Position numbers and translations under genes: made by a program. From positions 1 through 64,000 of the forward strand of contig NZ_JAMXAY010000018.1 in assembly GCF_025460835.1 (NCBI RefSeq): 64,000 nucleotides of DNA, read 5' to 3'. This stretch comes from Parapedobacter soli. GTDB taxonomy: Bacteria; Bacteroidota; Bacteroidia; Sphingobacteriales; Sphingobacteriaceae. Within the stretch, counting starts at the first letter, position 1. Every line of letters begins with the position of its first letter. This document shows positions 32,054 through 49,522 of this stretch, piece by piece. Under the pieces are notes generated by a model. It did no database searches and had not been told where the DNA came from. It saw nothing but the letters and a program-made list of their open reading frames with translations.

Positions 32054-35000
32054 CTATCCGGTCTTCATTTTACGCCGCGAAAAATAAATCCACCCCGCGA
32101 CGAATGCAACGGCGGCCACCAGCCCGATAAGCCGATAGCGCCAACGACGTTCCGTATATATCGGGTCGCTATCACCAATCAGAGACAACCCTGCCCAGTA
32201 ATAAGGATGGTCCAGTTCCCCGTCGTTTGCTGCTATAAAATCAAGTTTAGCGTTGCGAAGAGCTTCGCTCTTATCCATCCCTTTTGATAGGTATTCGTAA
32301 AATTTCGACACAATATCCGCATTCGTTTTCTCGTCGATTTTCCATAGGGACATGACCACGCCCGAACACCCCGCTTGCAGGAAACTGTGGGCCAACGAAA
32401 TCACGCCCTCCCCGTTGCGTAATGCCCCGCGCCCCGTTTCGCAGGCCGTGAGCACTGCCAACTCCGCACGTAGCTGCATGCCATAAATCTCATAGGCATG
32501 CAAATACCCATCATCGGTGTCGGCGGTGTCGCCAGGCAAGGATTTTGCAAAAAACAATCTCGACTGCATGGGCGACAGGTTATTTATCTCGGCATGCGTA
32601 CCGAGATGCAGTACGCGATACTGCGCTGCATGCGCTTTGAACGCCCCTTCCTGCGCCTGCTGTTCGGCAAACAGATCATGGGCAACGAAGCGGCCGATCT
32701 GCTGTGCAGCCTGCAACGAGAAGGGCTGCCTATTCAGGTAATAATACGGGTCATCCGGCTCGGCATTCGCGGCCGACGCCTGACGGAATGCTTCTTTCAT
32801 TTCCGTGGAAAACACGGGAACGAACAGCAGTGCCTTCCCCCCGACCCGTTTCGATTTGGCCTCTTTGATACGAATGGCGCTTGATGCAGACAGCAGGTAG
32901 GAGAACGTATACTGTTTGATCAGGTAAGGCATTTTTCCGAAATGCATTTCGTTCTCATGTTGCAACAACAATTCGAAATTGAGGTAATACAGAGATGCAT
33001 CCGGGATGACAAGCAAGCGGTTAGAATCAAAATAAGGAACGATTGGCTCGATTAACTCCCCGTAAAGCCGGTGTGACGAGGTTACGAATTGGCGAGCGGA
33101 AACGCCATGAAGGTGCCGCAATGCTTGGATGTCATCCAAGATTTCCTTTTCCATGCGGCGGACATAAAACCCATTGGCAGTAATGACAAAAACAAACACC
33201 GACTCATCGGTCACGGCGTAGTGGATGAGCGTTTCCCGTTTACCGAGCAATTTCTCACGGATTTCCGCAAGACTGTACGGTTCCAGATCGTATTTGGCGA
33301 GAAACGATTCATCGCCCGACTGCTTGAGGCTATCTTGGAATCGCCGGTAATCTTCCATGCTCCCCGTTAATAAACGAAGCAGGGAATCACTGGCTTGAGG
33401 TTCGTTGAGGTATTGTTCGTTGAGGCTGTTTATCCGGATGCGGAAGCCATGGTCGCGCGCAGCGGTCGGGTCGTCGCTACCTAGCGTAGCATCCACCATC
33501 AGGTTGTTTGATGCCAAGCGCAGTAGTAATGCTTTGCTACGTTCTGCATAATCTAATGCTTTTTCCAAATAGTCTGAATCGTTCCCTTCGCCGGATAATG
33601 CCCAACAGGATTCGACGCCGATCGAAAATAATTTTTTATTCGTATCGGCTTGCTCAATGAGCGAAGCCTGCGACCGGAACGCGTATAAATTAGCCGCGAA
33701 AAATGCACTGTACGCATCAATTATTTTGAGTATTTCTACCAAGTGTTGCCGTTGTCCGGTTTGGTTATATAAATCGTGAAGGATTGTAACCCGGTTCAGT
33801 AAGAATATGCAGGAATTAAAACTATAAGGTAAGCGCGGAACCCATTCCGATGGATCGGCTGGGAACTGCTCGAGTTGCATGGTGCGCAAAAACACGCTAT
33901 CGGAATACGCCAAGGCTTGTTCAAAGCGTCCGGCCCGACGATAGGTTGTGCTGATGTTGTCCAAAAATGAAAGCGAACGGTTCTGCAATTGGGGAAAATA
34001 CCGGCGAAAGTCGTCCCACGCAGCCTGTTGTATATTGATCGCCTCCTCCCATCGATCCAAATAACCCAATGTAGCCCCTTTGTCGGCTTTGGCATACAGG
34101 CTATGGTAAGAATTCCCCGATCCCATCCGTTGGTAATTTGCGATCGCTTTTTCATAGTAGTCGATAGCTTCTGCAAACCGGTCTTGGCTAAATTGGAAGT
34201 CGGCGTAATAGCTCTCAATATATGCCTTCTTGGTTAGCTCATCCGGCACATGCCCTTGCTGCAAACGGTACGCCCGTTCAAACGACCGCTCCGCATCAGG
34301 CGCCAATCCCAATTTTTGTTTCGTGCTTCCCAGCATGACTAGGGTCTCCAACATACCTGGTCCGAATTCACCAAAAATAGCGTCAAACAAGTTTTGGGCC
34401 TTGGTCAGGTACACATTCGCCAAATAATATTCATGCAGCGCATAGTACAATCCTCCCAGATTACTGTATGCCCCTGCCAGGAAGTACCCGTTGCCTGTTT
34501 CGAGGTAGTTGCCGTAGTGGATGTCCACGGCCTGGTGTTGGTGGTGTAAAGCTTCCTCATGCCTATTAAGTGCAAGGTACACTTCGGAAAGACTGTTGTG
34601 CATCATGCCCGTATTCGTATGGTCGTGCGGGTAATGCGTTCGAACGGCGCGCTCGAACTCCAAGCCATCTTGCAGGGCTTGGTTATAATCGCCGCTATAA
34701 TAGCTGATGAAATAATTGGTCTGCCATATATTTACCATCAGTGCCCCACCCCTGCCCTGCACCTGCAGGTTCAGTTCGAAGGCTTGCTGCGTGTAATGCC
34801 GTGCCGTTTGATAATCCTGAGCCGATAGATGCAGCTGGGCTATTGCATGATACAAGATGACGTAATGCCTATTTGGCGGCAGGTCTTTATCCACAGAATC
34901 CTCGGCTTTTTTTAAATAGCGTCTCGCCCGCTCCAAATCGTACAGTTGTACGTCCAGCTGCCCCATACGCGTATAGGCCGCCACCCTGGCTATACTTTTG

Positions 35001-35287
35001 TGTGGCAAATCATCGATCGTCCCCAATGCCGCACGCATCAGTTGCCGGGCCTCCTCCAATCCGGACGTACTGGCATATACCAGGGCCTTATGCGTAACGG
35101 CAAACACCAGGCTGTCGGCCTTCCCGGCCCGTGTATACAAATCGATGGCCCGATCGATCGTGTATAGCGCGCTGTCCAAGTTGTTCTCGCGGTAATTACG
35201 CTGGGATTTATCAAAGTCGCTCTCCTGTGCATAGGCGAAACAACCGATTAATAAAAGCGATAAGGGTAGCAACCTTGAGACAAACAT
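32054..35287 (-). CDS. Periplasmic TPR-CHAT protease with C-terminal membrane anchor (unit 1)
   Basis: A caspase-like (clan CD) protease fused to TPR repeats, 1077 residues. An N-terminal signal peptide (FVSRLLPLSLLLIGCFAYA) sends it across the inner membrane. About ten TPR-like helical pairs occupy residues 25-600. The CHAT domain (about 670-1040) holds the dyad H898 (in LHLGTHAE) and C949 (in VLTACETG), with the typical GEGVISLAHSFLQAG and LWKIDEKTNADIV after it. A single membrane segment lies at about 1052-1069 and is followed by the basic tail RRKMKTG, so the enzyme should face the periplasm. It follows the anti-sigma-like gene by 11 bases. A likely role is regulated cleavage of a partner; the substrate is not known. 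Confidence 0.85.
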   Translation of the reverse strand: MFVSRLLPLSLLLIGCFAYAQESDFDKSQRNYRENNLDSALYTIDRAIDLYTRAGKADSLVFAVTHKALVYASTSGLEEARQLMRAALGTIDDLPHKSIARVAAYTRMGQLDVQLYDLERARRYLKKAEDSVDKDLPPNRHYVILYHAIAQLHLSAQDYQTARHYTQQAFELNLQVQGRGGALMVNIWQTNYFISYYSGDYNQALQDGLEFERAVRTHYPHDHTNTGMMHNSLSEVYLALNRHEEALHHQHQAVDIHYGNYLETGNGYFLAGAYSNLGGLYYALHEYYLANVYLTKAQNLFDAIFGEFGPGMLETLVMLGSTKQKLGLAPDAERSFERAYRLQQGHVPDELTKKAYIESYYADFQFSQDRFAEAIDYYEKAIANYQRMGSGNSYHSLYAKADKGATLGYLDRWEEAINIQQAAWDDFRRYFPQLQNRSLSFLDNISTTYRRAGRFEQALAYSDSVFLRTMQLEQFPADPSEWVPRLPYSFNSCIFLLNRVTILHDLYNQTGQRQHLVEILKIIDAYSAFFAANLYAFRSQASLIEQADTNKKLFSIGVESCWALSGEGNDSDYLEKALDYAERSKALLLRLASNNLMVDATLGSDDPTAARDHGFRIRINSLNEQYLNEPQASDSLLRLLTGSMEDYRRFQDSLKQSGDESFLAKYDLEPYSLAEIREKLLGKRETLIHYAVTDESVFVFVITANGFYVRRMEKEILDDIQALRHLHGVSARQFVTSSHRLYGELIEPIVPYFDSNRLLVIPDASLYYLNFELLLQHENEMHFGKMPYLIKQYTFSYLLSASSAIRIKEAKSKRVGGKALLFVPVFSTEMKEAFRQASAANAEPDDPYYYLNRQPFSLQAAQQIGRFVAHDLFAEQQAQEGAFKAHAAQYRVLHLGTHAEINNLSPMQSRLFFAKSLPGDTADTDDGYLHAYEIYGMQLRAELAVLTACETGRGALRNGEGVISLAHSFLQAGCSGVVMSLWKIDEKTNADIVSKFYEYLSKGMDKSEALRNAKLDFIAANDGELDHPYYWAGLSLIGDSDPIYTERRWRYRLIGLVAAVAFVAGWIYFSRRKMKTG

Positions 35288-35298
35288 ATCGATCCAAC

Positions 35299-36036
35299 CT
35301 ACTTCGCCATTCGATCCAACAATTCTACAGCTTCTTCTTTTTCGGGTAATTGCTTCAGCAGCCTCTTCGCCTGGACATAGTCTTTCTCTTTCAGCTTCAG
35401 CAATGCCAAATACCAGATTGCTCTTTCGTGGAATACCGAATGTTTATTTTCGGAAAGGGGCGCCAAGTAATCTAAGGCGACTGCATCGGCATTTTTATTC
35501 AAATATGCTATACCGGTATAATAATGCAAGGTATCCGTTACGCCCTTTTCAACAGCGAGCTGCTTCCATACATTGATGGCACCGTCATAATTCCCTTCTT
35601 TATACGATATCATCCCTTCATTAAACACATATTTGGCCGAATCGTTGCTCATCACCACCGGCAACCCGGGGTCAGGCCGGAAATAGGCTGCATACAGGTC
35701 ATCTTCGGATACCATCTGCTGACGATACATCCACCATCCCACCAAGCCGACACCGATTAGTAACGCGGCTGCGGCCACATAGCGCCAATAAACAAACTGT
35801 TTGCCAGTTGTCGGCGGCGTTTTCACTTCCCGTTCAGTTGTTATGCTTGCGGTGAACGCACCGACCTCCACCGCGCCGATCAACTGCCGTTGTAATTCCA
35901 CCTCGTCGCGAAGCGGCTTATCGACCGACAATAGACGCTCAAACTCCACACGCTCAGCAGTATCCATACTGCCAAGCAGGTACCGCTCGATCCGCTCAAA
36001 CTCCTCGCGGCTGATATCTTGCCTGTATTTACTCAT
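35299..36036 (-). CDS. Single-pass anti-sigma-like membrane protein with periplasmic TPR domain (unit 1)
   Basis: A 245-residue protein in three parts. The N-terminal 60 residues (EEFERIERYLLGSMDTAERV and onward) resemble the cytoplasmic sigma-binding helices of Bacteroidota anti-sigma factors, without the zinc His-Cys motif. One membrane segment follows (about 85-104, YVAAAALLIGVGLVGWW). The periplasmic part has a juxtamembrane DPGLP motif (122-126) and two to three TPR-like helix pairs. Its start overlaps the sigma gene stop by eight bases and the CHAT gene follows after 11 bases. Topology is inferred from the membrane segment and positive residues. Anti-sigma activity is inferred from position and the N-terminal pattern. 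Confidence 0.7.
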   Translation of the reverse strand: MSKYRQDISREEFERIERYLLGSMDTAERVEFERLLSVDKPLRDEVELQRQLIGAVEVGAFTASITTEREVKTPPTTGKQFVYWRYVAAAALLIGVGLVGWWMYRQQMVSEDDLYAAYFRPDPGLPVVMSNDSAKYVFNEGMISYKEGNYDGAINVWKQLAVEKGVTDTLHYYTGIAYLNKNADAVALDYLAPLSENKHSVFHERAIWYLALLKLKEKDYVQAKRLLKQLPEKEEAVELLDRMAK

Positions 36037-36562
36037 CGTTATGCTGCCTTTCCAAATAGATTTTCCGCAATCGCATCATACACCGGTACTTAATAGTTTT
36101 GACGCTTTCCTCAGTATTATTCATCGCAGCTGCGATTTTTGCCAACGACTGCCGCTTAAAGTAAAACCGGCCCAACAACTCCCTGCACTTCTCCCCGATA
36201 CGGGCAATCGACTCGTTCAATCGCTGGTTCTGTTCCAGTTGCTTAGCCAACTGCTCTGTGTCATCAGCTTCCCCTTCAAATAATGACAGGTCATCTTTCA
36301 ACACCAACCGGATGCGCCCCGACGATTTGAGCTGATTTATCCACTTGTATTTGCAGATCTGCCGCACATAGGCGTTGAGCTGTTCGGCATCCCCGCGAAA
36401 TTTCCCCGCCCGCAGGTTCAGCCATGCAGCACTCACGCTTTCCTGAAAAACATCTGCGGCATCTTCAAGCGTACCTGAATTCTTCAGGATATACCCTTGC
36501 AGCCAACTAAAATTATCGGTGTAAACTTTGGTAAGCAGACGCTCCGGGTCTGCATTCCGCAT
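36029..36562 (-). CDS. ECF-type RNA polymerase sigma factor (unit 1)
   Basis: A 177-residue alternative sigma factor with the two ECF domains only. Sigma-2 shows EDAADVFQESVSAAWLNLRA and the -10-reading helix AYVRQICKYKWINQL. Sigma-4 shows CRELLGRFYFKRQSLAKIAA and EESVKTIKYRCMMRLRKIYL. I chose the ATG at 36562; an in-frame TTG six codons upstream (36580) is also possible. A housekeeping-like promoter lies at 36605-36638. The gene leads an operon with the anti-sigma-like and CHAT genes. Its closest relative in the window is the sigma factor at 48953-49522, which shares the CRELLGRFYF block. Confidence 0.88.
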   Translation of the reverse strand: MRNADPERLLTKVYTDNFSWLQGYILKNSGTLEDAADVFQESVSAAWLNLRAGKFRGDAEQLNAYVRQICKYKWINQLKSSGRIRLVLKDDLSLFEGEADDTEQLAKQLEQNQRLNESIARIGEKCRELLGRFYFKRQSLAKIAAAMNNTEESVKTIKYRCMMRLRKIYLERQHNDE

Positions 36563-36604
36563 ATCTTTTAGGCTTTCCAAAATTAAGCATTGCTTTGGTT
36601 GCCC

Positions 36605-36638
36605 GAAAGATACATAGTTTTATTAACTACAGCGACAA
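36605..36638 (-). promoter_or_regulatory. Candidate housekeeping promoter of the sigma factor unit 1
   Basis: On the minus strand TTG (36638-36636), 23 bases, then TATCTTTC (36612-36605), one base off TAnnTTTG. The spacing is at the long end of the usual range. About 43 bases separate it from the ATG. Confidence 0.4.
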
Positions 36639-36729
36639 TTCCCGGTGTTTTCTCTTTTTTACTGTTTATTATCACTCAAATATCTTGTTCCTTGTTGGAA
36701 CGACCGTTATCCGGATTCGACAAGTCCAC

Positions 36730-39243
36730 TCACGGTTTCAACGTGACAATGACTTGGGCCATTCCTGTTCTGGAAGCAGCGCCAGCAATGAATTTGGCGC
36801 AGTCGGGCGGACCGATCCAAGTAGGGCTCCACCCCGACGTCGCCAGCACATAACCAAACTCATACTGCCCGTCAGCATTAAGCTGGCCGGTGGCGGCTGT
36901 CCACGAGGCACCCGTCCCCGTCACTCTCGGAATGACCTCCGGACTGAATTCGATAACTCTGGCCGAATAGCTTACGGCGTTTTCCACGGGATCGACGTAA
37001 AAAATCGTACCCGCCCCGCAACTGGTATAAACACCGTCATCCGTGGGGCCCCAGCTGATGACCGAAATGGGTACATAGATGATTTTCTTCGTTTCGTCAT
37101 TCACGATGAACACTTTGCCTTCGAGCCGCTCAAACAGCTGGTACTCACTATCCGGTTGGCCTTTGGGCTTTACATAGATGGTAGCACTGATGTATTCCGT
37201 ACCCGATTTGGTTTCGTTGTCTACACATTCATACACAATCGAATTGGCTGTAGTGGAGAGGGTCTTCACGTGAGAAGTCCCATCCCCGCTCAATGCCCCA
37301 TATTTCCCCGCCGTGCTCCACGAAATGCGGTAATCATTTTCCGGGTCATTTTCTATCCGCACCATATTTCTGTTGATCGGCCGAATAAATAGCGTCACTT
37401 TGTTCTCACTCCCTTTTCGTCCGGAAACCGTGGCTTCTGGCCCAATCTGGTAAGCGCTTTTGTTCACCCGTACGTTTGCCGTATCCCGGCCAATCAGCTT
37501 ATCATCGATGTAAACGGCGACATACACCTGCTCCCAGTTTTCTCCATCGGTAAGTGCACTGGTCTGCATTCCCTGGAAAACGATCTTTGAATCAGCGCTT
37601 CGGAATGTTTTCCCGGCATTGCCTTTACTGTCAGACAGGGTACTGTATTTGCCGGTTGTTGTCCATTCATACGAGCGGTCCTTCCCTTTATCCTTTTCGT
37701 CCAAGTCTTTGATTTCCGCACTGATTTCCTGTCGGCTGGAGGCGCCACTTGTGGATACAGCGGCCTCGCCCGGAGTAAGGGTCACCTTGCTGCGCCGGGC
37801 CAATACTTCCCATTCTTCCAGCCCCTTGGAATGGTACCAGTGATAGGATACGCGCGCCCAATCCGTACCCTGAAGAATGAGATCTGTTACTAAAAACACC
37901 CGGGTAAGCTTCTTGGCCACGTCCTCGATTTTTCCTTGGGCATCGGGTAATGCTTTTTTGAGCAACATAACCAACAACGTCTGTCCCTGTGTCGCCACCA
38001 TCGCATCCAACGTGGCTATAAAAGCACCTGAAAAATCGCCTTTTACCATATTCTCCATGACCTTAGGCGTATTCAGTACAAGGTCTCCGAAAAGTTCGAC
38101 CATCCCGTCTTCCTGGAGGGAGCCTCCAGCTTTATAGAAGCCCCCTACCAGTGGAACAAAAAAATCATTGATAAAATGGTAGGCAAAAACTCCACAAAAG
38201 GCTGTAAGTTCCTTTTTAGTCAGCCCATTTTCTTCCATTTCTTCCGACAACGATATTTTCGTGCCAGCGCCTAGACCTATCAGGCGTACTTTGTAATACG
38301 CTTCGGTCTCGTCCTCGTCCAGGTCCAGCGATACGGGGTCGGATGTAATCATATTGGCTTCCAGTCCTTTTCCCTGGATGTTATTGTAGACTGTACCGGT
38401 AAATGATGTGACTCCCGAAACAGGGTCTACCCAAAAATCAACATCCGGATCGGTGCTTGCTTCCAGCCGGGGCAGAATATCACGGAAATGCTGTTCGCCT
38501 TCTTTTTTAGACTTCATTTTATAGGCAAATCCTACTACGGCACGTCGGTAATGGTTGGTCACCGAAAGCCCCAAATCCTCGGCATGGAGGCGCAGGCCGC
38601 TGCGTATATCGTTGGCATCTACCCGTATGCTTGAAGCCCTCGTGCTCATCGACAACGATGTAGGTACAGGGGCTGAAAGCCCCATAGCGGTCTCGTTGTT
38701 TGACATCCACTGTTTCAGTGCAGGGACAAACGAGCCGGAAGACAATCCTTTGGGGTTATTGCTCCAAGCTGCCGTAAATGCCGACACCCAGTCTGACACG
38801 GCCGGTATTTTGTCTATATTATTCACAAAGACTCCGTGTAGCGTATCCGGCTGAAACGCCGTACCTAACACATAATACAGCAGCACCTTCGCTGTGCTGG
38901 CCACCGAGATGGTTTGCGTACTATCTGTAATGAATCCGGCCATCACAGGATTGTCGTCCTTGTCAAAAAGATACGCTATACCAATCTGGCCATCTTTTTG
39001 TATTACTTTCGTTTTCCCATCTTTATCTACGGGCTGTATAACGCCTCCTGCAAATAATTCATGGCCATTCAGATCATAAGTAGACCCTGCGGGCAATATC
39101 ACTTGAGCATCTTTCAATTTGACATCAACCGGAACGGAATTGCCGTCATCGTCGTCAGGCAGGTTTGTGGAGTCTTTCTTACAGGAATTGGTCAGTGCCC
39201 CGATCAGGAGCATGAAGACTAGGGTAATTGCTTTGGTTTTCAT
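36730..39243 (-). CDS. Large lipoprotein with repeated Ig-like domains, function unknown
   Basis: An exported lipoprotein of about 837 residues (lipobox LTNSC after TLVFMLLIGA). I chose the ATG at 39243; an in-frame ATG at 39264 adds seven residues. An N-terminal segment (PAGSTYDLNGHELFAGG) is followed by a largely helical middle (about 150-470). The C-terminal half contains at least two Ig-like repeats of the form EW(S)T(T/A)GKYS.LSD, each beginning near a ...SRKEISAEI or GRKGSENKVTLFI strand. No catalytic motif was recognised. It follows the 260-residue lipoprotein by 32 bases and is probably cotranscribed with it from the motif at 40125-40151. Confidence 0.75.
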   Translation of the reverse strand: MKTKAITLVFMLLIGALTNSCKKDSTNLPDDDDGNSVPVDVKLKDAQVILPAGSTYDLNGHELFAGGVIQPVDKDGKTKVIQKDGQIGIAYLFDKDDNPVMAGFITDSTQTISVASTAKVLLYYVLGTAFQPDTLHGVFVNNIDKIPAVSDWVSAFTAAWSNNPKGLSSGSFVPALKQWMSNNETAMGLSAPVPTSLSMSTRASSIRVDANDIRSGLRLHAEDLGLSVTNHYRRAVVGFAYKMKSKKEGEQHFRDILPRLEASTDPDVDFWVDPVSGVTSFTGTVYNNIQGKGLEANMITSDPVSLDLDEDETEAYYKVRLIGLGAGTKISLSEEMEENGLTKKELTAFCGVFAYHFINDFFVPLVGGFYKAGGSLQEDGMVELFGDLVLNTPKVMENMVKGDFSGAFIATLDAMVATQGQTLLVMLLKKALPDAQGKIEDVAKKLTRVFLVTDLILQGTDWARVSYHWYHSKGLEEWEVLARRSKVTLTPGEAAVSTSGASSRQEISAEIKDLDEKDKGKDRSYEWTTTGKYSTLSDSKGNAGKTFRSADSKIVFQGMQTSALTDGENWEQVYVAVYIDDKLIGRDTANVRVNKSAYQIGPEATVSGRKGSENKVTLFIRPINRNMVRIENDPENDYRISWSTAGKYGALSGDGTSHVKTLSTTANSIVYECVDNETKSGTEYISATIYVKPKGQPDSEYQLFERLEGKVFIVNDETKKIIYVPISVISWGPTDDGVYTSCGAGTIFYVDPVENAVSYSARVIEFSPEVIPRVTGTGASWTAATGQLNADGQYEFGYVLATSGWSPTWIGPPDCAKFIAGAASRTGMAQVIVTLKP

Positions 39244-39275
39244 TTTATCCAAGTTGAATTTCAAACTTCATCCTA

Positions 39276-40058
39276 CTACTGGATATTCGGATTAAAAGGC
39301 GCCCTGTCGCGGTCATCCGGCACACCGTCATTATCCGAATCCTGGACGCTCTCGCGATCGATGAAGAGGAGCTGGTAGCCTATGGGAAGGAATGTTTCCA
39401 GCACCATCGCATCGTATTCAGCTGTTGGAGCCATAGTCATCTGTATACCCACGAATGAACTTCCCAAATCGGGCGAGGCATTGACGTTGGCCACAACCAA
39501 CGCCGTGAAGTCACCTGCACGGACCAGCCGGGTAGCCACGGTCGACTGCATTCCCGGGGCCAGTTGCTGGGCGCTCCCGTTGCTACATACAATTGTAAAT
39601 TGCGGATTGCCTAGGTTAGCAAGCATCTGGTTTACTTCGCTTTGCACCACCTGCTCGGCATTCGTCAAGCCGAAGAAAGTCGTCGTGACATAGCGCCACA
39701 GCACATTATTATCGTTGCGGAGCACGTTTACACCGATGGTACTGCTCCCGCTGAGCTCAAACGCTTGGTACCCTTGCGGCATCTGGAAGCCCAGTGCCGG
39801 GTATCCGCTGTGGATAAAATATCCTCCTGGATTCTTAATGGTCGGCAGACCTCCGGGGATGTCGCCCCGTAGCACACCGTTGTTCAAGTCCCAATACAAG
39901 GCCTGCACACCGCGTACATTGGGACATAGTTGTGATGTCATATTGGCCAACTGCGCCTCCGGTGAGGGGTTATCCCGCTTACTGCACGAAAGCAGTAAAC
40001 AAACGGCAACGATGCAGATCATCCGTTGCCATGTTGTATGTCTTTGTAGCTGTTTCAT
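39276..40058 (-). CDS. Lipoprotein with C-terminal thrombospondin type 3-like Ca site
   Basis: A lipoprotein of about 260 residues. The ATG at 40058 gives MKQLQRHTTWQRMICIVAVC with lipobox LLLSC; the frame is open further upstream only through a TTG. The mature part contains the N-terminal LCPNVRGVQALYWDLNNGVL and a Gly/Asn-rich middle. It ends in an Asp-rich DSDNDGVPDDRDRAPFNPN, matching the calcium-binding thrombospondin type 3 pattern. I do not recognise a family for the main domain. It heads a two-gene unit with the 837-residue lipoprotein. Confidence 0.72.
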   Translation of the reverse strand: MKQLQRHTTWQRMICIVAVCLLLSCSKRDNPSPEAQLANMTSQLCPNVRGVQALYWDLNNGVLRGDIPGGLPTIKNPGGYFIHSGYPALGFQMPQGYQAFELSGSSTIGVNVLRNDNNVLWRYVTTTFFGLTNAEQVVQSEVNQMLANLGNPQFTIVCSNGSAQQLAPGMQSTVATRLVRAGDFTALVVANVNASPDLGSSFVGIQMTMAPTAEYDAMVLETFLPIGYQLLFIDRESVQDSDNDGVPDDRDRAPFNPNIQ

Positions 40059-40124
40059 CGTCAAGTTATTACTTACCTATACCGATTAACTTCCGGCATT
40101 TAATCAAATGGATACGCTATGAGT

Positions 40125-40151
40125 TTATCAACGGAATAAAGGCAAGGTGAA
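40125..40151 (-). promoter_or_regulatory. ECF-type promoter candidate of the TSP3/Ig lipoprotein pair
   Basis: Minus strand: TTCACC (40151-40146), 16 bases, then GATAA (40129-40125), about 67 bases before the ATG. It differs by one base in the -35 box from the motif at 31937-31963 and has the same spacing. Weaker than the other copies. Confidence 0.35.
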
Positions 40152-40175
40152 CAGCTGAATTCATTTTTTTACGCC

Positions 40176-40249: not shown

Positions 40250-41776
40250 TCAGAATTCGTGGTCCCGCGACTCTCCCCACTCGGTATCCAGCGCAATGGA
40301 AAACCCGTTGATGGCACCCGTATCTCCAAGTAGCCGGCCGCGGAGCCGTAGCCGCACGTTGTTCCGTATCGATTGGGATATCGTTACCGTATTAAGCGCC
40401 ACGCCACCTTCGCCATAGGCCGTCAATTCATAGGTTATGGCCTCATCCTCAACGAGCAATCCAAAAAACTGGTGCAATGCAATCCGATAGTCGTCGGCAC
40501 CATCGAAACCGCTGAATTCGATCGTGTGGATATCCGACATGTGTTCCTCGGCTGGCTCGCCAAAAGGCGTATAGAGGAAATTACCGTGTTGCTTCGTTAC
40601 CTCAATCTTTTTAACCCGCAACAAATCGGCGGCTAAGTCGGTAAAATCGAATTCGACAAGGCTATAACAACGCCTCAGTACTGCCTCCATCTCCGCATCG
40701 CGACCATCTACCACCAAATTATCCAATAACACGGCGTAGGTGACTGCCCGGTAGTCATTAAAATGCTGCCCGAAATAAAACTCATTCGCATTGGTGACAT
40801 TATCGGGTAAAAGCATACCCTTATCAGATCGGTACGCCACAAATAGCACATCGTAACTGCCGTCTGCCAGCTTGATATCAAGCGCACCGCCCTCACCTAA
40901 TGCCGTCATGGATAGCTGCTGCTGTTGTACCACGGCACCATCTCCGGCCGAAAAAACATAGTAATGCAACGTGGTGGGCACCGTGGGGTCGCCTGTTTCC
41001 ACCTCGGCATTGTAAACACCGGACAAGCGGATGTTGTCCAACCGAACAGTGCCTTGTGTTTCATTGTAGTCACTGATAGTATCGCGATCACCGGCAAGGA
41101 AATCAAATTTTAAGTTCAACACAGTTGTTAGCCCGTCCCATATCGAGGAGAAATCAAACTGATAGGGATTTCTCTTTTGTTCCTCCATATTAGCAAATTG
41201 CCGGTTTTCAACGAAGGGCACATACGTCTCACCACCATCAAACGAATAAGAAAGTGAAAAAGCCTTTGGCCCCGTGTCAGAACTACTGATATCGAATGCG
41301 AATTCGGAAAGCGATTCTACACCCTGCAACGGCAGTTTCAATGTAACATTTCGTCCTCCACGAAGGCTAAATGCCTTACCCCCGGGATACGGTTCGACCG
41401 CAAAAGTCGAATTCGGATATGTGGGCGACGCAGCTACAGCCTCAAACGTAATCTCCGCCCCTTCCTCATCCACAGCGATATCAGGCTCCAAATCTTCAGC
41501 GTTGAACGACCAGAAGTAGAGGTACTGCGGTTCCAAACCGGGCTCGATGTTCTTCAATGCCTGCATACCGCCCAACCCATCGAAAGCCTGCAGAGCCGCC
41601 GACTTCATCCCATCCAAGGGGGTTACTTCGGCTTCGAAACCGGCCAACTTGAACGTGACATTCCGCAATTCATTCGTGGGTAACTCCGGGATGTGCCGCT
41701 TACAACCGGCAAACAAACAGACACACCATAAAATGGTGCATAATAAATAATCGGAAACGTGCTTTAAAGATCTCAT
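40250..41776 (-). CDS. Lipoprotein of unknown function with galactose-binding-like domain
   Basis: An exported lipoprotein of about 508 residues, start MRSLKHVSDYLLCTILWCVC and lipobox LFAGC. The longer upstream frame to 41887 adds a Cys/His-rich stretch that would precede the signal, so I reject it. One beta domain (about residues 100-270) has SFDGGETYVPF and GTVRLDNIRLSGV, a pattern seen in jelly-roll domains of Bacteroidota lipoproteins. The C-terminal half is another beta-rich region. No catalytic residues are apparent. It lies alone between two terminators, in the middle of the lipoprotein block between the two CHAT units. Confidence 0.7.
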   Translation of the reverse strand: MRSLKHVSDYLLCTILWCVCLFAGCKRHIPELPTNELRNVTFKLAGFEAEVTPLDGMKSAALQAFDGLGGMQALKNIEPGLEPQYLYFWSFNAEDLEPDIAVDEEGAEITFEAVAASPTYPNSTFAVEPYPGGKAFSLRGGRNVTLKLPLQGVESLSEFAFDISSSDTGPKAFSLSYSFDGGETYVPFVENRQFANMEEQKRNPYQFDFSSIWDGLTTVLNLKFDFLAGDRDTISDYNETQGTVRLDNIRLSGVYNAEVETGDPTVPTTLHYYVFSAGDGAVVQQQQLSMTALGEGGALDIKLADGSYDVLFVAYRSDKGMLLPDNVTNANEFYFGQHFNDYRAVTYAVLLDNLVVDGRDAEMEAVLRRCYSLVEFDFTDLAADLLRVKKIEVTKQHGNFLYTPFGEPAEEHMSDIHTIEFSGFDGADDYRIALHQFFGLLVEDEAITYELTAYGEGGVALNTVTISQSIRNNVRLRLRGRLLGDTGAINGFSIALDTEWGESRDHEF

Positions 41777-41802
41777 TGGTATATGTAAATTGGTTAATAA
41801 GC

Positions 41803-41892
41803 ATCCGTTGTGGCAGCATCCTCGCGATTGCGAATATGGGCTGCGACTTAATGCATGAGTCCAAGCATCATCCCGAAAATAACACAACGGAT
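41803..41892. repeat. 10-bp inverted repeat in the 312-base gap upstream of the 508-residue lipoprotein gene
   Basis: ATCCGTTGTG (41803-41812) and CACAACGGAT (41883-41892) are exact reverse complements 70 bases apart. The rest of the 312-base gap (41777-42088) holds the terminator of the metalloprotease gene but no gene or convincing promoter. The arms could be a pair of operator half-sites or a large RNA stem. Confidence 0.4.
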
Positions 41893-42023
41893 GGGAACAA
41901 CCAATAAAACACCTGAATACAAAGCAAACGTTACAATGTGGTAAAAAAGAATAACCGTTAAGATAACTTTTAGTACGTTGAGCCTTCTATCATCATAAAT
42001 ATATTGAATTTAAATTAAAACAA

Positions 42024-42048
42024 TGCCCACACCAAACCGACGTGGGCA
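42024..42048 (-). terminator. Terminator after the metalloprotease gene
   Basis: Minus strand: TGCCCAC pairs exactly with GTGGGCA around an 11-base loop, then TTGTTTTAATTT. It lies about 40 bases after the stop at 42089. Confidence 0.7.
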
Positions 42049-42088
42049 CTATACCATTTAAACGTTACGAAACCAGTCGCAACCGAAA

Positions 42089-44785
42089 TCAGCTTTTATC
42101 TACGGACAGCGCCTTGTCTATTATGAACAGTAAACTCTGCCGGTGCGCGGCAGTCTGTGCATCCGTGCCTGAGGCACCTGCCAATTTCCCCTTAAGATCA
42201 GTTAGGGCCGCTAACGCGCCGGCTTTGCTCGCATAGTCGTAGCCCGTCTTGGCTTCCAGGATACCAACCAACGCCTTCACATAATCCGTTTGCAGGTTCT
42301 GCCGAATCAGGTTGACAGCCCCGCCAAGGTCAGCATCAAAGATATTCGCGGTCAGGTCTTGCATTACATCGGTTACTGAATAACCATTTCCATACAGGCT
42401 GCTGTTGCTGATGCGCGTCAGGGTAGTCGGATGAAGGATATGCGAGAGCGTACTCACCTGCAGCGACCTAAACGTATTCTGTGGCTTGTAATCTTCCGTG
42501 CCACTGAAAAAGTTGAAGCCCCGGCGCTGGCGTTGCAAATAGGGGAACAGTTCATAATCCGTTGCGAACGCATCGGGCGCATACACATATTTACCCAGCA
42601 GTTCCATGGCCTTTTTCTGAACGTCTACCGGCACCGGTGTATAAGGTTTGGCGTCCGTTCGCTGCCCCACAAAACTACGGTCCACATACACGCCACCGAT
42701 ATACCGGCTGATGGCTGCTGCCATGCTTGCACGCTGGCTATTCAGTTGGCCATAGCGCTGCAACAGCTCTTGGTATCCTTGGTTGGGGCGGCTGAACCGA
42801 TCTTTCAGCTTTGGCATCATATCGTTTACTAATAGGAAACGCTCCTCCCCATAGGCCATCATATCGCTGGAGTGGTCATTTATCATCACCCGCGGGTCGA
42901 TGGCCTTGCCCGGGCTCCGCATATCGTCGGCATCATTGCCAAAGGCCAGCTTGGGGTCGGTGCTCCGGCTTAAAATTTTATCTAGCCCTTTTGCTTCGTC
43001 CGCCTCCGAAAATGGCGTATAACCATATTCAATGGCCCAAATATCATAAGGCCCCGCTTTTGTGGTATAATAATCGCCCTGCTTACTACGGTCGCGGCTC
43101 ACGTTAATGGCCGGATAGTCCATCACCGACCCCTGCAGACCGATTTTGCGTGTCAGTTTAGTATCGTGCAGTTGCTCAGGGCTAAGCATCTGGCTTGCCC
43201 GCATGTTGTGGTTCAAGCCGAGGGTATGCCCCATTTCATGCATAATCAAATAATAGAGGAATTGTTTATGCATTTCCTTTACCGTTTCCGATTTAGCAGC
43301 ATCGCCTGCTTCGGCATCTAATGTTTCCACAACAGCAACTCCGGTCTGGAACTGCATACTGAGCTCGTTAGCGAGGTTGCATAATGCCATACGGTTCACT
43401 TGGGAGTGGTGCACATACTCTGTCTGTGCTACCGCTTGCTCCGGATTTTCCCACGGTAACGATGCCAATGCGGCATTACCGCCATTAAACAAATCGTCCA
43501 TCACCGGTGTGCCCGCCCCCGATTTCCATTCTACCGTGATGTCGGCTCCTAGGATCTGCCCGGTCAGCGGGTTGAAAAAACTTGGGCCGATAGCGCCGTA
43601 GGTCGGAGTCGCTGAAGATTTCCAGCGGATCACATTATAAGTTATATCCGCCGGGTCCCAATCTGCATCATCGGGCATCTGTTTCATCACGATAGCATTC
43701 TTGAACCCAGCAGCTTCGAATGCTTCGTTCCACTTTTCCCCGGCCTCCTTGATTATCGGCCGGTACTCCAGCGGTGTGGTATTCTCTATCCAGAATACGA
43801 TTGGCTCCACCGGCTCGCTGACCCTTGCATTCGGGTTTTTCTTTTCAAGGTGCCAACGGCTGATAAAATCTCGGTATGGCGTGGGCGATATCGATGTCAG
43901 GTCATCCACCTCTGCCCCGAAGTAGCCCACACGGGGGTCGTCGCGCCTGGGGCGGTAGTTGTTTTGGGGTACTTCCAGAAATGAATGTTGCATTCTCACC
44001 GTCACATAGCGCGCATCGGTGATATCTTTGCCGCCACCATTCATAGGGGCGGGGTTGTCATAAGTCAACCGCACCACAATATCCGTATTTTTCGGGAATG
44101 ACCGCACCGTGTCGTAACTTGACTTCGCCGCATTCAAATTCCCCAGGTTGAAGACCGCTGTAGGCGGGATACCTGGAGGCATCACCGGTTTCACAGCGTC
44201 GAGCTTATTACTGATAAATAAACCATCAATCGGGATGAGGTAACCTGCACTATCGGAAGCAGCAATTTTCTCCGAATGGAATATTGTTTCTGCCACATCC
44301 GCATTGGCTGCCTTGCTCACCGGGTTATCCGGGTCATAATAAAATGATGTGTTTTTTCGTAAGAACTCAATTTTATCCTGGTTCTTCCGAATGCTGAACA
44401 ACCACGTATCGCGGATCATATTCTCGTTGAGATACAGCGACGTTGGCCCCCCCATAGAAAAGCTCTGATAGATAAAATCCTTGTCCAACTGCTCTTTCGG
44501 GAGGTATAGTTGCAAACTGGCCGTAGTGGTATCCCGATATAGCGTAAAAAGCCCGTCGATTTTCTTGCTCGACTTCACCTTTTCATCGATACTCGGCTTT
44601 TCGTCTTTCTTCTTCTTTGCCGAGTCCGCTACAGCTTTGGCCGTGCTGTCTGGCGGGGTTACCTTAGTGGTATCCGGTTGGTTCTTCGGAAGGGTGTCCT
44701 GTAGCAGGTACAGTGCCCCATGGCCTGAAACGGGCGTACCTAGAAATAGGCCGCCTATTACAGTTGCTAGCAATACATACTTCAT
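42089..44785 (-). CDS. Secreted zinc-dependent metalloprotease (metzincin-like, DUF4953/DUF5117 type)
   Basis: An 898-residue exported protease with a signal peptide (YVLLATVIGGLFLGTPVSG) and a Pro/Lys-rich linker at 30-75. The zinc site HEMGHTLGLNHN gives ligands H516, H520 and H526 with catalytic E517. A Met-turn follows at SVMDYP (M555), as in metzincins. The N-terminal half (LQLYLPKEQLDKDFIYQSF and onward) and the long C-terminal half match the layout of the Bacteroidota zinc-dependent metalloprotease family containing DUF5117, DUF5118 and DUF4953. It is likely periplasmic or exported. It is monocistronic, ended by the terminator at 42024-42048, and sits just downstream of the unit 2 CHAT gene. 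Confidence 0.85.
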   Translation of the reverse strand: MKYVLLATVIGGLFLGTPVSGHGALYLLQDTLPKNQPDTTKVTPPDSTAKAVADSAKKKKDEKPSIDEKVKSSKKIDGLFTLYRDTTTASLQLYLPKEQLDKDFIYQSFSMGGPTSLYLNENMIRDTWLFSIRKNQDKIEFLRKNTSFYYDPDNPVSKAANADVAETIFHSEKIAASDSAGYLIPIDGLFISNKLDAVKPVMPPGIPPTAVFNLGNLNAAKSSYDTVRSFPKNTDIVVRLTYDNPAPMNGGGKDITDARYVTVRMQHSFLEVPQNNYRPRRDDPRVGYFGAEVDDLTSISPTPYRDFISRWHLEKKNPNARVSEPVEPIVFWIENTTPLEYRPIIKEAGEKWNEAFEAAGFKNAIVMKQMPDDADWDPADITYNVIRWKSSATPTYGAIGPSFFNPLTGQILGADITVEWKSGAGTPVMDDLFNGGNAALASLPWENPEQAVAQTEYVHHSQVNRMALCNLANELSMQFQTGVAVVETLDAEAGDAAKSETVKEMHKQFLYYLIMHEMGHTLGLNHNMRASQMLSPEQLHDTKLTRKIGLQGSVMDYPAINVSRDRSKQGDYYTTKAGPYDIWAIEYGYTPFSEADEAKGLDKILSRSTDPKLAFGNDADDMRSPGKAIDPRVMINDHSSDMMAYGEERFLLVNDMMPKLKDRFSRPNQGYQELLQRYGQLNSQRASMAAAISRYIGGVYVDRSFVGQRTDAKPYTPVPVDVQKKAMELLGKYVYAPDAFATDYELFPYLQRQRRGFNFFSGTEDYKPQNTFRSLQVSTLSHILHPTTLTRISNSSLYGNGYSVTDVMQDLTANIFDADLGGAVNLIRQNLQTDYVKALVGILEAKTGYDYASKAGALAALTDLKGKLAGASGTDAQTAAHRQSLLFIIDKALSVDKS

Positions 44786-44835
44786 ACGATTTGGTTAAAA
44801 TTATACATTCATGTGTGGCACATCGTAGGCCAAGT

Positions 44836-44854
44836 GAGTCGTTCCGTACGACTC
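44836..44854 (-). promoter_or_regulatory. Perfect 7-bp hairpin upstream of the metalloprotease gene
   Basis: GAGTCGT and ACGACTC are exact reverse complements around a 5-base loop, about 50 bases before the ATG. No T-run follows, so it may be part of the leader or an operator. Its role is unknown. Confidence 0.35.
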
Positions 44855-44949
44855 TTCCCATAAGACGCCTCTGCACCAAATTAGTTGCTCACGAACATCG
44901 CAAATTATCACCGTATCACCCGCAACTTTTACGTTACATATCAATTGCC

Positions 44950-47900
44950 TTAGTTAGACTGGCCTCCTTTTTTCGGCTTCCGGCTCACCACTATAACACC
45001 TACAACCAACGAAATGAGCAAAACGCCAAGCATAATATGTCGGAATGGGGTAACCGGTTGTAATTCCACCGGACTCAAATCGCCCATAATAGCCAAACCG
45101 GCCCAATATTGCGGTGCCAACAAGCGGCCTTCTGCCTGCTGGAGATAAACCAGTTTTGCACGCTGCAATGCCAAATCTTTAGGTAGCCCCATCTGTAGAT
45201 GCATATAAAACGATTCGGTAATCACCATGCTCGATTGTTCGTCGATTTTCCACAGCCCGGCTAAAATGCTTTCACTACCTGCGTAGTTGAACGCGTGCGC
45301 CATCGATATCATGCCTTCTCCATTAAGATAACCGGATTTACCGGTTTCACAAGCAGTCAACACAGCCACATTGGCGATAAGGTTACAATTATAGATATCA
45401 TACAGATACACCGAGTTCTCCGTGCCTGCAGCACCGTCGTTAGTAAAAATCAACCGGGAATATTCGGGATGGTCGTTATTGGCCTCGGCATGTGTACCGA
45501 TATGGATAATACGATGATAGGCTGCATTAGAGCGGAACGCTTCAGCAGTCGACCGTTCCTCCACGAATAGCCTACCTCCCCATTCCCGCTGCATTTTATG
45601 TGCAAGTTTCACCGTAAATGGTAGTGGAAGGAGCTTTGTATATCCTCTGTCCATGGATAACGAATCCCGCCTGGCCGATGACAAGTACGCCGCTTTATTC
45701 CGGTCCGAAAATACCGGCGCAAATGCTACAAAATTATCCTTCATAACCGTACTGGGATTACCCGGCTTCAACGCCAACAAACTATAATGATACGATATGG
45801 CATATTTATTCAACAGGCATACTGCTGCCAATTCCCACAGGCTCGCAACGGGCACAGGTGCTAACATGTCGAAACTTACGTGATGCAGTATGCCATCGGG
45901 CACCACGATGACGCGACTACCTGTTAATGATGGCTCCAACGGCTGCCAAAGTATTTTATATAGTTGATGGGCCGCTTCCAACAATGGCCGTTCTCCTTGC
46001 CCGAAATCACGTAATAGTTTCACATAACGTTCCAAGCTGTCGTTAGCAAGTGGTGTAAAGGCCCATCCTGAGGCCGAAGAAACAAACGCAAAAAGACTTC
46101 CGCTAGATAGCACATACCTGATTACCGTCACATTTTCGGGCAGGGACCAGCCTATCCCAGCCAGCGCAATGCCTTCCTCAGCATAGCGCATCTGATAATA
46201 TGCCGGGAACCGTTGTTGCAGTTTATTCAAGAAAGTATTCCAGTTATCAACCGCGTGCCGGTAAGCACCGACTGCATTGTCGTCATTAGGGTTCTGTTGA
46301 AGGCTGATATGGATATTCTCCCGCAGCCGCTCCTCTTCTTCTAGCACCGAGTCCGGCACATGAGCAAACTTCAGGGCCTGCTGATAGTCCATCCTCGACC
46401 GCATCCGCGAATAAATCGCCCCCTCGTGGATATTCAACCCCTTTCTAAGCTGGGTGCTGTCATTCGTTTTCAGGTAAAGCTCAAAATGAAGCTTTTTGAT
46501 GAAATCGGTCAACGTTTGATGGCTTGCGATATGAGCCATAATGTCTTTCTGGTCGGTCAGTATCCGTTTCTTCCGATCGATGATTTCCGTTGCTTGCGCC
46601 AACTCCGCCAGCAATGACTGTAGTTCCGCGATACTCTTGGTTGGCGACAGTTCATAGGATGCCTTTGCGCGGATGAGCAAGGGCGACACTTTCTCCCCTT
46701 CGGTTTTGATAGAATCCTCCAGCGTAACGCTCTGACCTACAAACTTATTGATTTCGGCCAACGCACGTTGTGCATAGCCGTACGCTTGCCGGAAATCATG
46801 GCATTGGAACGCCAACTCACCGAGATGTTGAAGTTGGTAAAACGAGAGGAGTGAACGCTCGTTACCGGCGTCTCCCACGTAGCGCAGTGTCTTCACCGCA
46901 AGCGCTGTCGCCGTATCACATCGGCCCAGCTTCGCTTGGAAAGACGCGTACTTACGCAAAAACTCAAGATAAATATTGTCATACGTATCGGCGAATGCCA
47001 GCGCATACAGGCTGTCTGCCTTTTTATAGTACCTCTCTGCCGACTCATCCGAATGCTGTCTCTCTCCGATCAGTGCTAGCGCATAACATGCATCGGCATC
47101 CCAAAACAGGTAGTCCGCGCCGGCTCCTTTGATGGCCTCTCTTCCTTCAATAAGATATTCGCTCGCTTTCTTATAATCCGATGTTGCATAATACAGTTGC
47201 CCCAGGAGGATCTGTGAAATAAAGATCGCCGGGTCGTCTGCCTGCAGACGCTGCTTTTTCTGTTCAAACGAATACAATAGGAGCTGTTCGGTTTTTGCAT
47301 AATTCCCCAGTTCCTTATATGCGCCACCAAGATTGTCGATTGCCTCAAACTGGAGCGATAGGGCTTGCTTCTTCTCATCCGCATAACCTGGCATCGACAA
47401 AAACTCCCGTAATAAGGCGATGCATTTCTCCATCGATTGGATGGATTGGCTGGTCCGGCCCTGAAGGCTGTAAACGCCGGCTAGGTTATTCAAAAGGAGC
47501 GCCTGCCTGAAGTGCGTATTCAGCGGCGAATCATCAATCTGCTTCACCGCTTCGATAGACTTGTCAAAAAAATATTCCGCGCTGTCTAATTTAGCCGAAT
47601 ACCATGATAGTACGCCAAGCGACATATACGTCTGGTAAAGTTGCTTTTGGTCCGGGTCAGGCTGCTGCGACACCAGGTCCGTAGCAATAAGGTAGTGTTT
47701 ACGGGCAAGATCCAGGTTGGCCATCCGCCGTGCGTATTCGCCAAGATTACGTTGCATCAGCGCTAGCCGCTCGATTGGCGTATCTGTCGCCCGCTGGGCG
47801 AACGACAATGCTTCAAGATGTGCATCATACGCCCGTTTGTTATCGCCCATCAACCCGTAGAATTCTCCCAAATCGGCATAGGCCTCACGCAATGAACCCG

Positions 47901-48201
47901 ATTGGGCTCCAAACGACTCTATCTTTCTGACCAGTTCCTCGGCGGTTTGTTTGGCTTGTGCTGCCCCATATCTTTCGTGAGCGACATCACCGGCTAATTT
48001 CACGTATGACGCCAGCGAGTCCCCTTGCTGCTCCTCTATGAGAAAATCCAGGTGTTGTTGAAGTAATTGATTGGCCTCAGTTACGTTATTGTTATCCAAC
48101 AATTGTCGTACCTCGGTTTTTATCTGCGCTTCTTGTGCTATCCCTGTTGTAGCCAGGAATGCAATGGGAAACAAAACAGCTAAAAACACAAGGCATTTCA
48201 T
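44950..48201 (-). CDS. Periplasmic TPR-CHAT protease with C-terminal membrane anchor (unit 2)
   Basis: A paralogue of the unit 1 protein, 1083 residues. It has a signal peptide (MKCLVFLAVLFPIAFLATTG, cleavage near residue 22), TPR-like repeats to about residue 600, then a CHAT domain with H904 (IIHIGTHAE) and C951 (VLTACETG). GEGMISMAHAFNYAG and LWKIDEQSSMVI follow, as in unit 1. The C-terminal membrane segment (about 1055-1072, IMLGVLLISLVVGVIVV) is followed by the basic tail SRKPKKGGQSN. Its start overlaps the anti-sigma-like gene by four bases (ATGA). The dyad spacing is 47 residues against 51 in unit 1. A long helical stretch precedes the CHAT domain. Confidence 0.85.
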   Translation of the reverse strand: MKCLVFLAVLFPIAFLATTGIAQEAQIKTEVRQLLDNNNVTEANQLLQQHLDFLIEEQQGDSLASYVKLAGDVAHERYGAAQAKQTAEELVRKIESFGAQSGSLREAYADLGEFYGLMGDNKRAYDAHLEALSFAQRATDTPIERLALMQRNLGEYARRMANLDLARKHYLIATDLVSQQPDPDQKQLYQTYMSLGVLSWYSAKLDSAEYFFDKSIEAVKQIDDSPLNTHFRQALLLNNLAGVYSLQGRTSQSIQSMEKCIALLREFLSMPGYADEKKQALSLQFEAIDNLGGAYKELGNYAKTEQLLLYSFEQKKQRLQADDPAIFISQILLGQLYYATSDYKKASEYLIEGREAIKGAGADYLFWDADACYALALIGERQHSDESAERYYKKADSLYALAFADTYDNIYLEFLRKYASFQAKLGRCDTATALAVKTLRYVGDAGNERSLLSFYQLQHLGELAFQCHDFRQAYGYAQRALAEINKFVGQSVTLEDSIKTEGEKVSPLLIRAKASYELSPTKSIAELQSLLAELAQATEIIDRKKRILTDQKDIMAHIASHQTLTDFIKKLHFELYLKTNDSTQLRKGLNIHEGAIYSRMRSRMDYQQALKFAHVPDSVLEEEERLRENIHISLQQNPNDDNAVGAYRHAVDNWNTFLNKLQQRFPAYYQMRYAEEGIALAGIGWSLPENVTVIRYVLSSGSLFAFVSSASGWAFTPLANDSLERYVKLLRDFGQGERPLLEAAHQLYKILWQPLEPSLTGSRVIVVPDGILHHVSFDMLAPVPVASLWELAAVCLLNKYAISYHYSLLALKPGNPSTVMKDNFVAFAPVFSDRNKAAYLSSARRDSLSMDRGYTKLLPLPFTVKLAHKMQREWGGRLFVEERSTAEAFRSNAAYHRIIHIGTHAEANNDHPEYSRLIFTNDGAAGTENSVYLYDIYNCNLIANVAVLTACETGKSGYLNGEGMISMAHAFNYAGSESILAGLWKIDEQSSMVITESFYMHLQMGLPKDLALQRAKLVYLQQAEGRLLAPQYWAGLAIMGDLSPVELQPVTPFRHIMLGVLLISLVVGVIVVSRKPKKGGQSN

Positions 48202-48953
48202 GGAATTGACGTAATATCGTTTAAGAGGGAATCCTTGGCGTGGTGCTCGGTACGGCGCAACTGCATTAATGCATCGGCTTTCCTACCTTGCTTCAACATG
48301 GCCAGCGCCTTATACCAATAGGCATCAGATTGGAATACAGAGGTCGGAGCGGCGGTTACCTTGTCGAGGAATACCACCGCGGAGTCGGGCTGGCTGTTGG
48401 CTAGGTAAGCAACTCCGATAAAATAATTCAGTGTGTCGTTACTCCTATTTTCCACCAATAACGGATACCACTTACCTATGGCTTTTCGGAAGTCACCGGT
48501 CTTATAATCTACCATGGCTTCTTCAAATTCATAATTGTCTGACGTTCCCATTAGTGTTGGTAAGCCGGGGTCGGCCTTATAGTACCGACTGAACAGCTTC
48601 TGTTCCTGTGGTTGTGCCGATCGGAAGAACCATAAGCCCACCATAGTCAACACCAATACGGCCGCGGCGGCCAGCCATCGTATACGTTGCCAAAGCGGCT
48701 TACTACTAGTAGAAATGACAGCCTCTTCAGGTTGCAACTCAGCATGGAATAAATTTAACTGTTCAGCGATGTTGGCCTCCTTTATGCCTACAAGCAGTGC
48801 ACGGACTTCCTCTACTTTCCTTTCAAATACTGGGTCGTCCCTTAAACGTTCGTCAAATACCGAACGTTCATCCGCACCCAATTCATCATTCAAATACTCG
48901 CTAATGTATGCCAGCTCTTCTTCGTGCAAATCGTATGACGGCTTCTTTTCCAT
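48198..48953 (-). CDS. Single-pass anti-sigma-like membrane protein with periplasmic TPR domain (unit 2)
   Basis: Paralogue of the unit 1 membrane protein, 251 residues. The N-terminal helices (LAYISEYLNDELGADERSVF, then DERLRDDPVFERKVEEVRAL) resemble Bacteroidota anti-sigma N-termini. One membrane segment lies at about 91-110 (LAAAAVLVLTMVGLWFF). The periplasmic part opens with the same juxtamembrane pattern as unit 1, YYKADPGLPTLMG (DPGLP at 128-132), and then TPR-like helices with EFEEAMVDYKTGDFRKAIGK. It overlaps the sigma gene by one base (TAATG) and the CHAT gene by four (ATGA), so all three are translationally coupled. Confidence 0.7.
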   Translation of the reverse strand: MEKKPSYDLHEEELAYISEYLNDELGADERSVFDERLRDDPVFERKVEEVRALLVGIKEANIAEQLNLFHAELQPEEAVISTSSKPLWQRIRWLAAAAVLVLTMVGLWFFRSAQPQEQKLFSRYYKADPGLPTLMGTSDNYEFEEAMVDYKTGDFRKAIGKWYPLLVENRSNDTLNYFIGVAYLANSQPDSAVVFLDKVTAAPTSVFQSDAYWYKALAMLKQGRKADALMQLRRTEHHAKDSLLNDITSIP

Positions 48954-49522
48954 TATTTCACTCCCTCCTTAAGCACCAGTTCACGCAATTGTTTCAGACA
49001 ACGGTATTTGTTGTTTTTCGCACTAGCCTCCGTCCAGGCAAATTCGGCGGCAATTTCCCGCAGACTTTGTTTGCGGAAGTAGAACCTTCCCAGCAATTCA
49101 CGGCAGCGCGCTCCCAAATGCTTATATTGTTTTTTCACGGCGTTGATGTAATCATCGGTTTCTTCGCCTCGTTCATCCGATACAACGTCAGATTCGTGCC
49201 GTTCATCAACCGGCACCATATATCTATTTTTTTGTTTTCGCAATTCGTCAATCCATTTATTTTTTCCTACCCGCATGAGATAGGCCTCAAAATCCCCTTC
49301 GTCGCGAGGCAAAAACCTTCCAATCTGAATGTTTCTCCATACGGCAAGGAATGCCTCTTGATAAATGTCTTTAGCATCATCGCCTCCCCCGGAATTTTGC
49401 AAAATATAGCGTTCTAAAGCCTCATAATTTGCGATGTAAAGCTGTTTCAATACCGCTTGTTCATCAGAAATGATTCGCTTTACAAGGGAGTCGTCTGGTA
49501 GTCGGAAAGCAGGTTGGTCCAT
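48953..49522 (-). CDS. ECF-type RNA polymerase sigma factor (unit 2)
   Basis: A 189-residue ECF sigma factor. Sigma-2 reads DDAKDIYQEAFLAVWRNIQI with the DNA-melting helix YLMRVGKNKWIDELRKQKNR. Sigma-4 reads CRELLGRFYFRKQSLREIAA and EASAKNNKYRCLKQLRELVL. The shared CRELLGRFYF block places both sigma factors in one subgroup. It begins at the ATG at 49522; a possible promoter of the usual type (TTG at 49575-49573, 22 bases, TAAATTAG at 49550-49543) lies 21 bases upstream. It leads the sigma/anti-sigma/CHAT unit 2 operon. Confidence 0.88.
   Translation of the reverse strand: MDQPAFRLPDDSLVKRIISDEQAVLKQLYIANYEALERYILQNSGGGDDAKDIYQEAFLAVWRNIQIGRFLPRDEGDFEAYLMRVGKNKWIDELRKQKNRYMVPVDERHESDVVSDERGEETDDYINAVKKQYKHLGARCRELLGRFYFRKQSLREIAAEFAWTEASAKNNKYRCLKQLRELVLKEGVK

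Follow-up and report, generated by a model that had tools for sequence, protein, structure and literature searches.

The window analysed here, a 64,000-nucleotide stretch of a Parapedobacter soli contig (NZ_JAMXAY010000018.1, positions 1 to 64,000), carries two three-gene units, each encoding an extracytoplasmic function (ECF) sigma factor, a membrane protein resembling an anti-sigma factor and a protein combining tetratricopeptide repeats (TPRs) with a CHAT domain. All six open reading frames lie on the minus strand at exactly the coordinates given in the original prediction, confirmed to the base (Table 1), and the order and domain layout—sigma, membrane TPR anti-sigma-like, TPR-CHAT—is the same in both units. 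The spacing is also as described: in unit 1, the sigma and anti-sigma-like genes overlap by 8 bases and an 11-base gap leads to the CHAT gene, and in unit 2 the corresponding junctions are overlaps of 1 and 4 bases. Both sigma proteins exceed the curated TIGR02937 cut-off of 42.9 bits. Between the units, the CHAT halves are 32% identical and the other two proteins 34% and 36%, the latter being the sigma pair; judged by this identity (32–36%), the two units are old paralogues.

Table 1. Features of the two sigma/anti-sigma-like/TPR-CHAT units in the window
Feature	Positions	Strand	Basis and details
Unit 1 ECF-type sigma factor, 177 aa (P0003)	36029-36562	-	TIGR02937, 60.4 bits
Unit 1 membrane anti-sigma-like TPR protein, 245 aa (P0002)	35299-36036	-	Transmembrane helix near residue 81; TPR; 8-base overlap with sigma
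Unit 1 Met129 codon (LPVVM-SND), conserved stalk position, predicted P1	35650-35652	-	Alignment column
Unit 1 TPR-CHAT, 1077 aa (P0001)	32054-35287	-	H898/C949; pocket candidate D985-E986; C-terminal transmembrane helix
Unit 2 ECF-type sigma factor, 189 aa (P0006)	48953-49522	-	TIGR02937, 69.6 bits
Unit 2 membrane anti-sigma-like TPR protein, 251 aa (P0005)	48198-48953	-	AlphaFold 2 model
Unit 2 Met135 codon (LPTLM-GTS), conserved stalk position, predicted P1	48549-48551	-	Alignment; predicted loop 125-137
Unit 2 TPR-CHAT, 1083 aa (P0004)	44950-48201	-	H904/C951; pocket candidate D987-E988; C-terminal transmembrane helix 1053-1074

The middle gene of each unit encodes one transmembrane (TM) helix and a C-terminal TPR domain. 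The gene lies directly 3′ of the sigma gene and its TM helix falls about 80–110 residues in, the layout of a membrane anti-sigma factor; the same layout recurs in around 110 relatives, in line with the anti-sigma-like topology first proposed. Against the NCBIfam anti-sigma model NF052375, the N-termini score 28.9 and 34 bits, below the curated cut-off of 100; the model matches at E values up to 0.01 in 14 of 30 relatives, and zf-HC2 falls just under its cut-off in two loci (L109, E = 3.5e-4; L106, E = 9e-4). In the AlphaFold 2 model of the unit 2 protein (confidence score pLDDT 88.7), N-terminal helices span residues 11–73, followed by the TM helix (87–112), a juxtamembrane helix (116–124), a loop (125–137) and the TPR domain (138–248). 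A fold search with this model returned a list filled by TPR matches, and so did not cover the N-terminal domain.

The third protein matches the CHAT family PF12770 above its cut-off in both units (182.5 bits, E = 1.5e-53 in unit 1; 136.4 bits, E = 1.7e-39 in unit 2), and the His-Cys dyads called at the outset are both present. Among ungapped CHAT sequences, the Cys is found in 321 of 321 and the His in 320 of 321. In the AlphaFold 2 model of the unit 2 protein (pLDDT 87.9), the CHAT half folds like separase (5fby; Z = 25.8, root mean square deviation 3.1 Å over 305 residues) and like Csx29 (Z = 28.6). The conserved dyad and the fold match sustain the expectation that the CHAT protein is a likely protease, its activity being predicted. 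Its location was assessed by a simple hydropathy scan rather than a trained predictor: among 73 paired CHAT proteins of full length, it finds a hydrophobic leader at the N-terminus in 62 and a TM helix towards the C-terminus in 56, and in 55 of the latter a positively charged tail follows. By the positive-inside rule, this helix and tail would place the TPR-CHAT part in the periplasm, as had been suggested.

The association of these genes is not confined to the window. All three CHAT genes of the source genome adjoin a sigma and TPR anti-sigma pair; as this 5.17-Mb genome encodes around 41 ECF sigma factors, such an outcome is not expected by chance. The third trio (L001; G000:C15:1-3157), missed when the two units were first described, is convergent, with the CHAT gene tail to tail with the sigma/anti-sigma pair and about 18 bp away; the N-terminus of its CHAT protein is cut off by the short contig. 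Sigma genes occur at 116 per Mb within 1 kb of CHAT genes and at around 0–34 per Mb beyond 4 kb. Across several hundred loci from relatives and named genomes, the association is phylum-wide; Aquimarina, Kordia and Saprospiraceae, among others, show it at their CHAT loci. When an anti-sigma gene lies within 300 bp of the CHAT gene, two layouts alone are seen: 20 loci are co-directional (sigma, anti-sigma, CHAT) and 31 are convergent. Linkage is therefore conserved in related genomes, as anticipated, but the operon-like order is not universal, and the convergent layout indicates that the link between sigma and CHAT is independent of a shared operon. In many genomes of the same family (L059, L061, L064, L071, L076 and similar), the sigma/anti-sigma pair lies 3.3–4.8 kb from the CHAT gene on the opposite strand with genes between, and the stalk motif described below reads ERG or ERS.

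An alignment of 110 anti-sigma-like proteins singles out one residue of the periplasmic stalk, which tops conservation outside the Ala-Ala at the TM entry and the start Met. The column contains Arg 92 times, Met 10, Lys 3, Leu 2 and Asp once (n = 108). The residue stands just before the TPR domain, and the unit 2 model puts it in the loop that follows the juxtamembrane helix. It is retained in proteins whose surrounding stalk is unrecognizable (QVRNT in L250, LVRNN in L264, ALRSN in L265) and in those whose C-terminal TPR is swapped for another domain (L109, L106, L110 and L131). A stalk residue more conserved than the core of its protein resembles a cut site or a contact site. The protease had originally been placed beside the TPR part of the anti-sigma-like protein; the candidate contact is instead the stalk.

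A candidate partner for this residue lies in the CHAT domain, four residues past a near-invariant Trp (LWKVxD) and, in the model, where the following helix begins. Here 302 of 322 ungapped CHAT sequences have Asp and 15 have Glu. For anti-sigma and CHAT genes paired within 1.5 kb, we counted, as stalk/pocket residues, 56 Arg/Asp, 10 Met/Glu, 2 Leu/Asp and 1 Lys/Asp pairs, and no Arg/Glu or Met/Asp pair. The Met/Glu pairs comprise all ten pairs of the clade of the window, both units included, and the third trio of the genome is of the Arg/Asp type. The anti-sigma-like and CHAT proteins also co-evolve (r = 0.52; equalled in 0 of 5,000 permutations). Several families of clan CD, including separase, prefer Arg or Lys at P1 (PMC4357240, PMC4626109). 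These pairings may amount to a readable code, in which a CHAT Asp goes with an Arg cut site and a Glu with Met (or Lys), within a Bacteroidota-wide family of separase-like enzymes dedicated to the site-1 cut of anti-sigma factors; we put this forward tentatively, as somewhat less probable than not. In three loci without a sigma neighbour, all from one CHAT-rich genome (L084, L085 and L086; G037), the pocket position holds Gly (SLWKADGQAT).

The stalk also tracks CHAT by genome. We searched 395 genomes of the class with a profile of the anti-sigma N-terminus, TM helix and stalk; the counts of matching genomes that follow are among the matches listed. CHAT is present in all 46 genomes in which a match reaches through the stalk, including 22 of 22 that contributed no sequence to the profile, against a base rate of 142 of 395 genomes. 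Matches confined to the N-terminus and TM helix are accompanied by CHAT in 9 of 20 genomes, or 3 of the 14 independent ones (stalk versus N-terminus/TM-only genomes: Fisher 1.6e-7 and 6e-7, relatedness ignored). Three findings are new here: the conservation of one stalk position, the way it covaries with the CHAT residue, and this co-occurrence.

From these observations we infer that the CHAT protein is the site-1 protease of the anti-sigma-like protein and that the stalk residue is P1. The role of site-1 protease had been part of the original prediction; it gains from the stalk residue, the covariation and the co-occurrence, and the cut itself is predicted. We somewhat favour a reading in which each trio is a self-contained envelope switch, in which predicted cleavage of the stalk after the conserved residue would release a sigma factor predicted to be bound. 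The sigma factor would be held by the cytoplasmic N-terminal helices of the single-pass protein, which would cross the inner membrane once and extend into the periplasm as a short stalk followed by a TPR (or other) sensor domain. The exported TPR-CHAT protein, anchored by its C-terminal helix, would place a separase/caspase-like protease beside that stalk in the periplasm, and its long TPR array would probably be the sensor of the trigger, as in Csx29 (PMC10028731). Cleavage would fall some 15–25 residues beyond the membrane, after Arg in most systems and Met in the clade of the window, and a general site-2 protease would then free the sigma factor; we think that the single M50 peptidase of the genome (G000:C114) is that enzyme.

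Bacteroidota have dozens of ECF sigma factors, and their triggers are poorly known. To our knowledge, most CHAT proteases outside CRISPR systems have no known substrate. The locus offers one such protease a candidate partner together with one single residue to mutate. If the proposed switch is correct, an entire phylum would use caspase/separase-type enzymes for site-1 cleavage in the envelope, and the Csx29–Csx30–sigma system would look like a single offshoot of a wider protease/anti-sigma/sigma theme.

Several points weigh against this proposal. First, the middle protein is inferred to be an anti-sigma factor from its position, topology and sub-threshold profile matches, and conservation of the stalk could reflect docking rather than cutting. 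Second, the Met/Glu systems group together as one clade in each of the two trees (support 0.999 and 0.985), so that the covariation represents a single evolutionary event, or two at the most, and is not proof. The sole apparently independent case, L123 (Lys/Glu), has its two genes 2.2 kb apart, and a strict code would not accommodate the two Lys/Asp and two Leu/Asp pairs. Third, the pocket residue at +4 is a candidate lining of the S1 pocket only; the separase model names Asp1082, which is not exactly that position (PMC4626109). Fourth, the leader of the unit 1 CHAT protein (LLIGC-FAYAQ), overlooked in the first reading of the locus, is compatible with either a lipobox or cleavage by signal peptidase I, and that protein could be a lipoprotein. 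Finally, a sigma gene is missing from the neighbourhood of many CHAT genes, chiefly those outside the class, which implies other roles for the CHAT family.

Of the other readings, the one that survives best takes the CHAT protein to act in the periplasm as a sensor or co-receptor, binding the stalk or TPR part of the anti-sigma factor and controlling it without cutting. Both partners have TPRs, co-evolution suits binding as well as cutting, and in DdvA, described below, anti-sigma and CHAT occupy one chain; we nevertheless regard it as unlikely, because the dyad, unneeded for binding alone, is kept in essentially all 321 sequences, and because the conserved residue maps to a predicted stalk loop and is retained when the TPR is replaced. 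Less probable still is that CHAT is an effector protease under sigma control with other envelope or secreted targets, a member of the regulon rather than its activator. Such a role would agree with the secreted or surface proteins and metalloproteases among the neighbours and with the separate promoter that the convergent layout would give the CHAT gene, whereas the conserved stalk and the covariation would be left unexplained by a pure target gene, as would the rule that a stalk-bearing anti-sigma implies CHAT. A Craspase-like arrangement in the cytoplasm, with CHAT acting inside the cell on the sigma factor or its anti-sigma, has a precedent in Csx29–Csx30–CASP-sigma (PMC10028731) but is highly improbable here, given the leader and C-terminal TM helix with its positive tail, scores for the Csx29 model NF041237 of 15.5 and 16.3 bits where the cut-off is 300, and the lack of CRISPR array-like repeats in window positions 20000–64000.

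Directly upstream of the unit 1 sigma gene lies a gene for an 844-aa secreted lipoprotein-like protein without a Pfam match (36730–39264); the same gene is directly upstream of sigma in L044 (1818–4424) and near sigma in L037 (12168–14741), and its product is possibly a conserved partner or a regulon member. After the unit 1 trio (26497–31898) come a PorV-like protein and a 1,449-aa protein targeted to the type IX secretion system, with three 396-base internal repeats, relatives of which flank the L077 trio. The unit 2 CHAT gene is followed by a DUF5117/DUF4953 metalloprotease gene (42089–44785), which also comes after CHAT, at 86% identity, in two relatives, L038 (5381–8080) and L040 (9305–12004), and is absent from L044, the closest CHAT relative. 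Upstream of unit 2 (51218–56253), genes for a Ser/Thr kinase, a PP2C-like phosphatase and FHA proteins form a separate phospho-signalling cluster.

A limited literature search found no Bacteroidota sigma/anti-sigma/CHAT system, although a paper may exist elsewhere. The idea is nevertheless not wholly new, and a precedent in the PDB was missed when the switch was first proposed. A PDB profile search with the CHAT domain only, the list for the whole-length profile being swamped by TPRs, gave DdvA as its best match (E = 3.6e-7). This Myxococcus protein (8ROT, 8RW5), the partner of the ECF sigma factor DdvS, is deposited as a transmembrane anti-sigma factor, and the chain itself is named a CHAT domain-containing protein; its signal was unknown as of 2015 (PMC4374960). 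Like the CHAT proteins of the window, it keeps the His and Cys, and it has Asp at the pocket position. Anti-sigma and CHAT are fused in DdvA and are two proteins here: 0 of 326 Bacteroidota CHAT open reading frames carry an anti-sigma N-terminus.

The type III-E CRISPR system also brings together a TPR-CHAT protease, an anti-sigma substrate and an ECF-like sigma factor at one locus (PMC10028731). It differs in being cytoplasmic and RNA-activated through Cas7-11, with a soluble Csx30, and the Csx29 aligned here (for example, 7x8a) has Ser at the candidate pocket position. Csx30 of D. ishimotonii is cleaved between residues 427 and 429, and deletion of Met427 abolishes cleavage. Sigma genes of the ECF54 group likewise have a CHAT gene, or one for a subtilase or carboxypeptidase, in their context, but are proposed to work without an anti-sigma factor (PMC8999054), whereas a membrane anti-sigma would be central here. 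Separase (clan CD, C50), whose C. thermophilum structure matches the CHAT half and which cleaves after Arg, is a eukaryotic enzyme without a membrane anchor, and its target is intracellular cohesin. The proposed logic is that of RseA–DegS–RseP, in which a periplasmic site-1 cut is followed by a site-2 protease that frees sigma, except that the site-1 enzyme there is a PDZ serine protease rather than a dedicated neighbouring caspase-like enzyme. The system described here is a two-protein, envelope, CRISPR-free version of a known theme.

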